Positions 11,849 through 14,464 of a DNA stretch of 64,000 nucleotides are shown one piece after another; positions within the stretch are counted from its first letter, which is position 1, and every line of letters begins with the position of its first letter. Origin of the DNA: Williamsia limnetica (GTDB lineage: Bacteria > Actinomycetota > Actinomycetes > Mycobacteriales > Mycobacteriaceae); the NCBI RefSeq assembly GCF_003217475.1, contig NZ_QJSP01000018.1, positions 1-64,000 on the forward strand, written 5' to 3'. A model generated the notes under the pieces. It saw only the letters and a list, made by a program, of their open reading frames with translations, had not been told where the DNA came from and searched no databases. The translations under genes and the position numbers were made by a program.

Positions 11849-12709
11849 ATGGGCCTTTTCGGGCACGGCAGCAGCGACAGAGAGCCGAGTTTTGTGCGGA
11901 CTTTCGTGCCGATCCTGGCCTTCTCGCTGCTCTGCGGGATCGTCGGCCCGATCTTTCTGGCAGCGTATTTCGTCATCGACGACCCGATGGTCGGCTGGAT
12001 GTTCTACACCGGGCTCGCCGTCACCGTCTTGGATGTCGTCATCGCGTTCTTCATCGCGCGTTTCACCTACCGCGGTCGGCGTCGGCGGTACGAACTCGAA
12101 CAGACCGGGCGGCTCGGTGTGGCCGACGTGCTGTCGGTGGAGCAGACGAACGTCCAGGTCAACAATCAGCCGATGATGAAACTCAAGCTGCGGATCCATG
12201 GCGACGGCATCGCGCCGTTCGAGGCCGACAAGCGGCTGGTCGTTCCGCTGATGCATCTGGCAGCACTCAACGCGCGACGGCTGGCAGTGCTGGTCGACCC
12301 CTACTCGGGTGAGTTCGAGATCGATTGGAACCGTACGTCGTTGCTGGCCGGGTCCGCGCCTGCGCGGTTCACCGACACCGATACCGGCCGTGAATATGAT
12401 CTGTCGGGGCAGTCCGCAGCCTTGATGGAGATCATGAATGTGTTCAAGAACAACAACATTCCCTTCGGTGGCACCGTCGATCTTCGCTCCAATCCCGTTG
12501 CCCGTCAGCAGGTCATGGACATCGTGCGCCGCGTCGGAGGACAACCCGCTGGTGGCCCGGACCTGCGAAAGGTCGACTATGCCGCACCTCCTGCGCCCCC
12601 GCAAAGCCCGAGTCAGCGGCTGGCCGAACTCGAGGCGATGCGGGGTGCCGGCAACATCAGCGACGCGGAGTACCAGGCGGTTCGGACGCGGATTCTCGGC
12701 CAGCTCTAG
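11849..12709 (+). CDS. Membrane protein with C-terminal SHOCT domain
   Basis: 286 aa. Two hydrophobic helices near the N terminus (about 17-40 and 45-68) are followed by a basic stop (RGRRRRYEL), a soluble middle region of mostly beta character, a Pro-rich linker (APPAPPQSP) and a final ~30-residue SHOCT module, AELEAMRGAGNISDAEYQ. SHOCT is a short oligomerisation motif often found at protein ends. The ATG at 11849 follows GGGGGCGAGG and is preferred to the upstream in-frame start at 11804. Function is not recognisable. The gene is separated from its neighbours by large palindromes, so it is probably transcribed alone. Confidence 0.7.
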   Translation: MGLFGHGSSDREPSFVRTFVPILAFSLLCGIVGPIFLAAYFVIDDPMVGWMFYTGLAVTVLDVVIAFFIARFTYRGRRRRYELEQTGRLGVADVLSVEQTNVQVNNQPMMKLKLRIHGDGIAPFEADKRLVVPLMHLAALNARRLAVLVDPYSGEFEIDWNRTSLLAGSAPARFTDTDTGREYDLSGQSAALMEIMNVFKNNNIPFGGTVDLRSNPVARQQVMDIVRRVGGQPAGGPDLRKVDYAAPPAPPQSPSQRLAELEAMRGAGNISDAEYQAVRTRILGQL

Positions 12710-12716
12710 ACCCCGA

Positions 12717-12784
12717 AATTCGCGCCAGATACCTGCGTACGCGCCGGTTGCAACCGGCGCGTACGCAGGCAAGCGGCGCGAATT
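12717..12784. repeat. 68-bp palindrome with a perfect 38-bp core
   Basis: CCTGCGTACGCGCCGGTTG (12732-12750) is immediately followed by its exact reverse complement to 12769. Outer arms AATTCGCGCC (12717-12726) and GGCGCGAATT (12775-12784) extend the symmetry. It starts 8 nt after the SHOCT gene stop and lies upstream of clpP. It would make a very stable hairpin or cruciform and may act as a terminator, but its perfect symmetry without a loop is unusual. Confidence 0.75.
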
Positions 12785-12861
12785 CTGGCTGCAGCTGAGG
12801 GCAGAGCTGCCCACGGCAGCAACGGCTTTCGCGATCACCTGCTGGCGCGCAGGCTTGGTCC

Positions 12862-13476
12862 ATGACAGATGACAAGACACCCGGCCCCATCGACGACGAA
12901 TTGGTCACCCGACTGTTTCACCAACGCGTGATCGTTCTCGGTGACCAACTGGACCAGCAACTCGGCAATCGCCTCTGCAGCCAGCTACTGCTGCTCTCGG
13001 CCGAGGACTCCCACAAGGACATCAGCTTCTGGATCAACTCGCCGGGAGGTTCGGTCCCGGCGATGCTGGCGATCATGGATGTCATGCGCGCCATTCCCAA
13101 CGACGTGAGCACCCTGGCCCTCGGGATCGCGGCGAGCGCCGGCCAGTTCCTGCTCTCGGCCGGCACGCCGGGCAAGCGGTACGCGCTGACGCACTCGCGA
13201 ATCCTGATGCATCAGGGCTCGTCGGGTATCGGGGGCACCGCCGTCGACATCGAACTGCAGGCCGACGACCTGCGCCACACCCGGGACACCGTGCTGGCCC
13301 TGATCTCGGCGAACACGGGTCGCCCGGCCGAGCAGATCTGGAACGACTCGCTCCGCGACCGCTGGTACACCGCGCAGCAGGCAGCCGACTACGGATTCAT
13401 CGACCGGGTCATCGACACCGTCGAGGACATCTACCCGGCGTACTCCCGCCCGGCGGCGCTGGGAGGTCGGCGATGA
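12862..13476 (+). CDS. clpP: ATP-dependent Clp protease proteolytic subunit (ClpP1-like, active)
   Basis: 204-aa ClpP. The catalytic triad is present: S92 in GIAASAGQF, His in ILMHQG and the Asp in LRDRWYT. It forms heptameric rings and degrades substrates delivered by ClpX or ClpC. The next gene overlaps by 4 nt and encodes a partner ClpP, as in the two-subunit ClpP1P2 of mycobacteria. No trigger factor or clpX gene follows, and the operon ends convergently on a ClgR/PopR-like regulator. This suggests an accessory, stress-inducible pair rather than the essential housekeeping pair; that point is inference. Confidence 0.92.
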   Translation: MTDDKTPGPIDDELVTRLFHQRVIVLGDQLDQQLGNRLCSQLLLLSAEDSHKDISFWINSPGGSVPAMLAIMDVMRAIPNDVSTLALGIAASAGQFLLSAGTPGKRYALTHSRILMHQGSSGIGGTAVDIELQADDLRHTRDTVLALISANTGRPAEQIWNDSLRDRWYTAQQAADYGFIDRVIDTVEDIYPAYSRPAALGGRR

Positions 13477-14066
13477 GCGGCTACACGATTCCGTACGTGG
13501 TCGAGAAGTCCGCAGGCGGCGAACGGTCGATGGACGTCTACAGCCGACTGCTGTCGGAGCGGATCGTGTACCTCGGCACCGCGATCGACGACGGGGTCGC
13601 AAACGTCCTGATCGCCCAGATGCTGCATCTGGAGTCCGACAGCGCTGACCTGCCGATCAACCTCTACATCAATTCCTCTGGCGGATCGCCCGAGGCGATG
13701 CTGGCCGTGTACGACACGATGCAGTACATCCGATCCGAGGTTGCCACGACCTGCGTGGGGCAGGCGGGTGGCCCCGCAGCGGTACTCCTGTCGGGCGGTG
13801 CTCCCGGGCAGCGCGGCATTCTGGGCCACGGGCGGGTTGTGCTGCATCAGCCGTCCATCCAGGGGCAGGGTTCGATTCCCGACCTCATCATCCACGCGGA
13901 CGAGGTGGTGCGGGTACGCGGCGAACTGGAGCAACTGCTGGCCCGGCACACTGGGAAGGACCTGCAGACGTTGCGCCACGACACCGACCGCGACCTGATT
14001 CTGCCGGCCGCGGCGGCGGTCGACTACGGGCTGGCCGACGAGGTGCTCTCCACGAGACCCAGGTGA
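13473..14066 (+). CDS. ClpP-family subunit lacking the catalytic serine
   Basis: 197-aa ClpP fold. The nucleophile-elbow motif reads CVGQAGGPAAVLL where active ClpP has GQAAS; G100 aligns with the catalytic serine, and the codons (GGT GGC CCC) are unambiguous. The His (VLHQP) and the Asp (TDRDL) are still present. The protein is therefore probably proteolytically dead and would act as a structural or gating ring with the upstream ClpP. It overlaps that gene by ATGA and is surely cotranslated. It ends 11 nt from the convergent regulator gene. Inactive ClpP paralogs that assemble with active ones (for example ClpR in cyanobacteria and plastids) are the closest known precedent. Confidence 0.88.
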   Translation: MSGYTIPYVVEKSAGGERSMDVYSRLLSERIVYLGTAIDDGVANVLIAQMLHLESDSADLPINLYINSSGGSPEAMLAVYDTMQYIRSEVATTCVGQAGGPAAVLLSGGAPGQRGILGHGRVVLHQPSIQGQGSIPDLIIHADEVVRVRGELEQLLARHTGKDLQTLRHDTDRDLILPAAAAVDYGLADEVLSTRPR

Positions 14067-14077
14067 TGGAGGGGCGG

Positions 14078-14464
14078 TCAGGACACCATGCGCAGTTGCG
14101 CTCGCCCGCGCGCCGGGTCCACTGCGGACGGGCGGGCGCCGCGGCGGTGAGTGCCGCCGACGGCGACGACGGGGCGCGCGGCTCGCTCGAGCAGCAGCGC
14201 GACGCCTTTGGTCACGTCGAGCAACGTGATCCCGAGAGCGCCGCTCACCGCGGAAAGGATCTCTGACGAGGGCTCTTTGCGCCCGCGCTCGATCTCTGAG
14301 AGGTACTGCGGAGAGACCCCGGCCTCCGTCGCGATGTCGGTGAGGATTCGCCCCTGCGCCGTTCGCTCCGCCCGGAGGTACGTCCCGAGCACACTCCGCC
14401 ACAGGGCGTCTGGACGCGAAGGCTCGGGGGTGCGGCCGGGGAGGGTCATCGAGGTGTCGCCCAT
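14078..14464 (-). CDS. XRE-family regulator, ClgR/PopR-like
   Basis: 128 aa with an N-terminal helix-turn-helix of about 60 residues: LGTYLRAERTAQGRILTDI, then GVSPQYLSEIERGRKEPSSE. This strongly resembles ClgR and PopR, the activators of clp protease genes in Corynebacterium, Mycobacterium and Streptomyces. Its position convergent to a clpP pair supports that role. The C-terminal tail is Arg/Ala-rich and ends QLRMVS. The ATG is the last in-frame start and lies 6 nt after a TAGGTT hexamer, so the mRNA is probably leaderless. Overlapping GTTCG/CGAAC palindromes suggest autoregulation. Known ClgR and PopR are themselves Clp substrates; whether this one is cannot be seen. Confidence 0.82.
   Translation of the reverse strand: MGDTSMTLPGRTPEPSRPDALWRSVLGTYLRAERTAQGRILTDIATEAGVSPQYLSEIERGRKEPSSEILSAVSGALGITLLDVTKGVALLLERAARPVVAVGGTHRRGARPSAVDPARGRAQLRMVS

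Follow-up and report, generated by a model that had tools for sequence, protein, structure and literature searches.

In the housekeeping ClpP1P2 protease of actinobacteria, one ring is catalytic, the other serves docking, and the serine of the docking subunit ClpP2 is dispensable. In Streptomyces, all three ATPases dock on ClpP2; a ClpP2 S131A mutant has full activity and a ClpP1 S113A mutant has none (PMC9765437). Similarly, ClpP2 of Mycobacterium tuberculosis is reported to scaffold the chaperones, its own catalysis being nonessential (PMC9067928), and a core with an active ClpP1 ring carries propeptide processing to completion even when its ClpP2 ring is inactive (PMC4416901). Streptomyces also carries clpP3clpP4, a two-gene clpP operon with a PopR-type activator and its box, separate from clpP1P2 (Viala 2000). 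The reported PopR binding site is TCTGCC-3N-GGCGAATCTGCC-3N-GGCAGA, and the two C-terminal alanines of PopR are the likely recognition site for its degradation by ClpP1P2 (reviewed in PMC9775585).

ClpP paralogues without an active site are not new. Among 121 Clp-like proteins, 21 catalytically defective homologues were reported (PMC2605481), and a 2022 paper describes clpP alleles lacking the triad in Streptomyces coelicolor and Nocardia (PMC9067928). The S. coelicolor and Nocardia asteroides alleles resemble the case presented here in that one ClpP paralogue lacks residues critical for catalysis, which limits the novelty of a dead clpP subunit. However, the passage that presents them draws no link to clpP3P4 or PopR, gives no count of independent losses and makes no docking comparison. 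The same paper calls the function of ClpR, the non-catalytic ClpP paralogue found in mixed cores of cyanobacteria and plastids, poorly understood (PMC9067928).

The DNA analysed here, referred to as the window, is a stretch of 64,000 nucleotides (G000:C18:1-64000) from the 6.35 Mb genome of Williamsia limnetica, assembled in 52 contigs. On its plus strand, a clpP3-type gene (12862-13476, 204 aa) and a clpP4-type gene (13473-14066, 197 aa) overlap by the four nucleotides ATGA (13473-13476), an offset that is also the commonest spacing among related loci (166 of 229 unique pairs). Both products match the peptidase S14 family PF00574 (ClpP3 201.4 bits, ClpP4 198.9 bits; cut-off 20.2). ClpP3 has the complete Ser-His-Asp triad, formed by Ser92 (codon 13135-13137), His117 and Asp166. 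ClpP4 reads Gly-His-Asp: His125 and Asp174 are retained, and the place of the nucleophile is taken by Gly100, encoded by GGC on the plus strand (13770-13772) within the motif QAGGPAA. All of this agrees with an earlier sequence-only reading of the locus, which had described an accessory actinobacterial clpP operon of two genes, one subunit being complete and the other lacking only the nucleophilic serine. That reading had also proposed looking for a second, housekeeping locus, and a clpP1P2 pair with both serines present was indeed found on another contig (G000:C14:97338-98562). A PopR-type helix-turn-helix regulator (14078-14464, minus strand, 128 aa) is convergent with the pair, and a PopR-type box with a degenerate left copy lies upstream of clpP3 (12789-12820, plus strand). 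With two adjacent clpP genes besides clpP1P2, an adjacent PopR-type regulator and this box, the window locus is a PopR-type clpP3P4 operon, accessory to clpP1P2.

We surveyed accessory operons by similarity to the window ClpP4, with cut-offs of E 1e-60 for the order (397 genomes) and E 1e-64 for the class (394 genomes). Matches at these thresholds occurred in 99 of the 397 genomes, some of them being housekeeping ClpP2, and in 111 of the 394; loci from named genomes were the best 80 of 581 confirmed stretches. Part of the matches yielded 270 adjacent pairs, 253 of them distinct. Best matches assigned 24 of these to the housekeeping type, and the tree placed one more (L257) there as well; without them, 228 accessory pairs remained. 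The triad of ClpP3 is intact in 227 of these; in the exception (L110), which lies close to the end of a contig, the alignment starts at residue 108 and leaves the Ser outside. The triad of ClpP4, in contrast, is altered in 174 and intact in 54, a prevalence biased by the choice of the window ClpP4 as query. Altered ClpP4 occurred in 60 of 84 genus labels, among which codes and names may overlap, and triad loss is not special to the Williamsia locus. Since 54 pairs keep the full ClpP4 triad, its loss is permitted and not required. Housekeeping pairs have Ser-His-Asp in both subunits (24/24).

The lesions in ClpP4 are of several kinds. Ser is lost in 150 of the 228 (replaced by Ala in 89, Gly in 52, Trp in 4, Glu in 4 and Phe in 1). 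His is lost with Ser kept in 17, and Asp alone is changed in 7. One genus label (g110), which we take to be Streptomyces, contributes 16 class-level loci; these lost His and kept Ser (15 SGD, 1 SGE) and differ in this from Williamsia, where Ser is lost. Not every Asp change need mean inactivation, since Listeria ClpP1, with Asn at the Asp position, has a working triad in its complex (PMC9765437); if Asp changes are disregarded and only lesions of Ser or His counted, 167 of 228 remain. Outside the triad, ClpP4 position 69, where the NSPGG motif has its Pro next to conserved glycines, is Glu in 94 of 228 sequences and Ser in the window (13677-13679).

The ATPase pocket residues tested in S. hawaiiensis are S94, Y96 and Y116 of ClpP2 and Y76, Y78 and Y98 of ClpP1 (PMC9765437). 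Aligned positions in the window are Asn63, Tyr65 and Tyr85 in ClpP4, and Ser55, Trp57 and Ala77 in ClpP3. The first position is variable (Asn in Williamsia ClpP4, Ser in S. hawaiiensis ClpP2). The second is Tyr in 228 of 229 unique ClpP4 sequences, and 226 of the 229 have Tyr, Phe or His at the third. Among 228 ClpP3, 47 have Tyr or Phe at the second position and 15 have an aromatic residue at the third, the latter with one change on the tree. We scored the ClpP2-type N-loop motif on in-frame extensions upstream of the core; a count on locally aligned cores was set aside, since trimming could create the pattern. The motif is present in 218/228 ClpP4 and 24/26 housekeeping ClpP2, and in 0/226 ClpP3 (2 more were not scorable) and 0/24 housekeeping ClpP1. 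Williamsia ClpP4 keeps the N-loop Pro7 and its ClpP3 has no ClpP2-type motif. Because no housekeeping ClpP1 has the motif, the N-loop split was inherited from ClpP1P2. The third aromatic is also missing from 7 of 24 housekeeping ClpP1, and neither absence is special to ClpP3.

We consider it likely that labour is split between the rings of a PopR-activated accessory Clp core, with the unfoldase bound by ClpP4 and cleavage left to ClpP3. ClpP3 would form the cutting ring and ClpP4 a non-catalytic ring with N-loops and hydrophobic pockets, on which ClpX or ClpC would dock and through which it would feed substrate. This reading is favoured because the ClpP3 partner retains its triad in 227 of 228 pairs, against 174 altered ClpP4, and the docking Tyr is kept in ClpP4. 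To the observed residues, conservation, purifying selection, operon and box of clpP3P4 it adds a two-ring arrangement, docking on ClpP4 only and expression upon ClpP1P2 failure, all of which are carried over from the homologous ClpP1P2 of Streptomyces and M. tuberculosis and may hold here. ClpP4 looks like the actinobacterial ClpP1P2 arrangement carried to its end, with the difference that ClpP2 keeps its full triad in all 24 housekeeping pairs. The structural role that had been proposed for one subunit, here a structural or docking role for ClpP4, appears to be the best reading. It predicts that covalent serine inhibitors would act only on the ClpP3 ring. ClpP3P4 is also reported to be insensitive to ADEP (PMC12607617). 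The missing pocket tyrosines of ClpP3 are consistent with that insensitivity and offer a sequence rationale for it.

ClpP4 could instead mix with ClpP3 inside the same heptamers and dilute their active sites, as in Synechococcus, where ClpP3/R rings contain three ClpP3 and four ClpR (PMC4673316). We regard this as unlikely: in the closest homologues, the actinobacterial ClpP1P2, each subunit has a homoheptamer of its own (PMC9765437), and the N-loop and docking residues are divided between ClpP3 and ClpP4. The comparison with ClpR made in the sequence-only reading survives in the sense that ClpP4 may work like ClpR, also a non-catalytic paralogue in a mixed core, but ClpR rings are themselves mixed in Synechococcus, and actinobacterial ClpP2 with its dispensable serine is the closer template. 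Our comparison with ClpR is by profile score alone: NF009204 (PRK12552), presumably the ClpR-type model, gave 153.4 bits against a cut-off of 263, and general ClpP models scored higher. We assume that ClpR of cyanobacteria and plastids is a lineage separate from ClpP4.

In a quick tree without bootstrap (145 representatives, triad columns masked), accessory ClpP4 formed one clade of 124 rows (SH-aLRT 99) apart from housekeeping ClpP2. The fewest changes between intact and altered triads were 13 on the full tree, 11 when branches below 80 or below 90 were collapsed, and 7 when those below 95 were collapsed; loss-only counts were 30, 20, 12 and 7 (uncollapsed, then collapsed below 80, 90 and 95). 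At least 7 to 13 changes between the intact and the altered state are needed. Independently of any tree, the Ser-first, His-first and Asp-first states cannot descend from a single lesion without re-gain. We further noticed two Ser-bearing ClpP4 (L100:4001-4585, QAISAGA; L170:2046-2633, QAVSVGA) nested among Ala-bearing relatives. These could be candidate active-site re-gains, since Ala to Ser is one base change.

A possible history of the ring-split core is that a docking aromatic of ClpP3 was lost early and that the active site of ClpP4 degenerated repeatedly afterwards. The ClpP3 partner lacks the aromatic at position 3 in 173 of the 174 pairs with altered ClpP4. Docking loss first and catalysis loss later would fit, an order that rests on one change at position 3 and carries no statistical test. 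For docking position 2, the independent-pairs test found no association between its state in ClpP3 and ClpP4 loss, and a link to loss at that position was rejected as unsupported. A fuller version of this history is conceivable, and we hold it tentatively, at rather less than an even chance. Loss of the ClpP3 aromatic would have made ClpP4 catalysis superfluous, and it would have been lost many times through Ser, His or Asp lesions. The result would be a one-sided protease that has its seven docking sites on one ring and its seven cutting sites on the other, with possible re-gains in L100 and L170, and a PopR degradation switch that slipped in Williamsia. The case for such reciprocal degeneration is weakened by housekeeping ClpP1, which likewise lacks the N-loop and, in part, the third aromatic.

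Closest among named genomes, within the best 80 of 581 stretches, is the ClpP4 of Williamsia soli (95% identical). Beyond Williamsia, the nearest in this set are two Gordonia (araii/effusa), then Leifsonia, Cellulomonas and Agromyces, which we take to belong to another order (Micrococcales); two other Gordonia in it have a Ser-bearing ClpP4 (62%). In the tree, ClpP4 of Williamsia and Gordonia araii/effusa (L063-L090) grouped with Leifsonia, Agromyces and Cellulomonas, not with the other Gordonia. The ClpP3 tree likewise joined Williamsia, the same Gordonia, Leifsonia and Agromyces (SH-aLRT 99). These groupings suggest that the clpP3P4 operon was transferred between lineages.

The two subunits might also work with housekeeping partners, ClpP3 with ClpP2 or ClpP4 with ClpP1, ClpP4 then being a modulator or dominant-negative of ClpP1P2. 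A precedent exists in S. hawaiiensis, where ClpP-ADEP has two effects: it disrupts ClpP1, and it joins ClpP2 in an active core (PMC12607617). Cross-pairing is nevertheless quite unlikely here, as the clpP3 and clpP4 trees are broadly congruent by eye, the two genes stay adjacent, and clpP1P2 or clpP3P4 alone is enough for the viability of S. lividans (PMC9765437).

Position 100 of ClpP4 is Gly in all nine Williamsia genomes examined. Conservation of Gly-Gly-Pro, which the sequence-only reading had singled out as a check, extends to eight of them (QAGGPAA), the ninth reading QAVGAAA. The codon varies synonymously between GGC, GGA and GGT, and in 4/9 genomes the catalytic Asp is also changed to Glu. 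Over Williamsia genome pairs with dS between 0.02 and 1.2, dN/dS was 0.094 for clpP4 (30/36 pairs), 0.073 for clpP3 (25/36), 0.275 for the PopR-type regulator gene (27/36), and 0.039 and 0.048 for housekeeping clpP2 and clpP1 (36/36 each). The clpP4 gene without its nucleophile is under purifying selection, weaker than that on the housekeeping clpP genes. In relatives with a Ser-bearing ClpP4, the codon is TCN in 77 of 78 (TCG or TCC in 75), and Gly is therefore two base changes away; Ala is one step from TCG or TCC, and Trp one step from TCG. AlphaFold2 predicted a ClpP fold for the ClpP4 monomer (mean pLDDT 88.4; 31 aligned rows), with a chain of M. tuberculosis ClpP1P2 (6iw7) as best PDB match (49% identity, TM 0.92). 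By sequence, 110 solved chains matched ClpP3 and 110 matched ClpP4; none of the 60 solved-chain matches listed was a ClpP3 or ClpP4 by molecule name.

Most Ser-lacking ClpP4 keep His and Asp and might still act as peptidases through another nucleophile. This is very improbable for the window protein, whose residues 97-103 (QAGGPAA) include no Ser, Thr or Cys; moreover, His or Asp was lost instead in other lineages. Although an active-site residue is absent, a sequence error, private mutation or decaying pseudogene is effectively ruled out, because Gly is found in nine of nine congeners with synonymous codons, dN/dS is about 0.09 and the predicted fold is confident: Williamsia ClpP4 is a conserved pseudo-subunit.

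The ClpP4 family bears on the question of why some ClpP cores retain active sites that others lose. Repeatedly dead ClpP4 (such as L107 of Cellulomonas), sisters that still carry Ser (L090 of Cellulomonas, L132 of Actinotalea) and a partner with a retained triad are ready comparisons on whether a docking ring needs catalysis. In the open-licence literature searched, we found no description of repeated, multi-route ClpP4 loss or of a split between docking and catalysis in clpP3P4. What is new is the breadth of ClpP4 triad loss, its several routes, and a Williamsia PopR without the AA degron.

The gene facing the operon had been read as ClgR/PopR-like. The convergent PopR-type reading stands, while a role as the genome's main ClgR was rejected: with the ClgR model, the window regulator scored 71.9 bits against 134.9 for the genome's main ClgR-type protein, both below the cut-off of 170. 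The best ClgR-type protein of W. limnetica is encoded elsewhere and ends in AAA. Of 229 loci, 219 had a PopR-type gene, convergent in every case; 14 of these genes lie more than 1 kb away and may be other regulators. The C-terminal AA is present in 187 of the 219. All nine Williamsia proteins end in VS or AS instead (RMVS in the window, 14078-14092), a second difference from the Streptomyces clpP3clpP4 system. The usual PopR degradation signal thus seems altered in Williamsia, and because AA is replaced by VS or AS, induction of clpP3P4 may depend less strictly on a failure of ClpP1P2.

The box at 12789-12820 contains the exact palindrome CTGCC-CAC-GGCAG (12807-12819), its sole exact copy within the 64-kb window. 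The consensus around 61 exact palindromes upstream of clpP3 is GcnCtGCCgnngGCnGaTCTGCCnngGGCAGA, in which selecting the sites predetermines the right copy but not the left; the window box matches 19 of 26 consensus letters and is itself among the consensus sequences. Exact palindromes occurred upstream of 56 of 228 clpP3 genes (a set with L257 in and L110 out), compared with a shuffle mean of 0.24, 0/228 gene interiors and 1/24 housekeeping pairs. At least 9 of 10 box letters were found upstream of 142 of 228 clpP3 genes of the final set, against 6.2 in shuffles; the box shuffles preserved base composition only. Genome-wide, the palindrome CTGCCNNNGGCAG is not enriched (18 places against 35 for its backwards control). 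We dropped it as standalone proof, its weight coming only from its place and its conservation upstream of clpP3.

Between the upstream gene and clpP3 there is also a long palindrome (12717-12784). The stretch 12705-12800 around it folds with -57.6 kcal/mol (z -6.4). The 20-nt core of the palindrome is found at four genomic sites, mismatched at one of them and in every case within a similar two-arm hairpin, which points to a small palindromic repeat family or a strong terminator.
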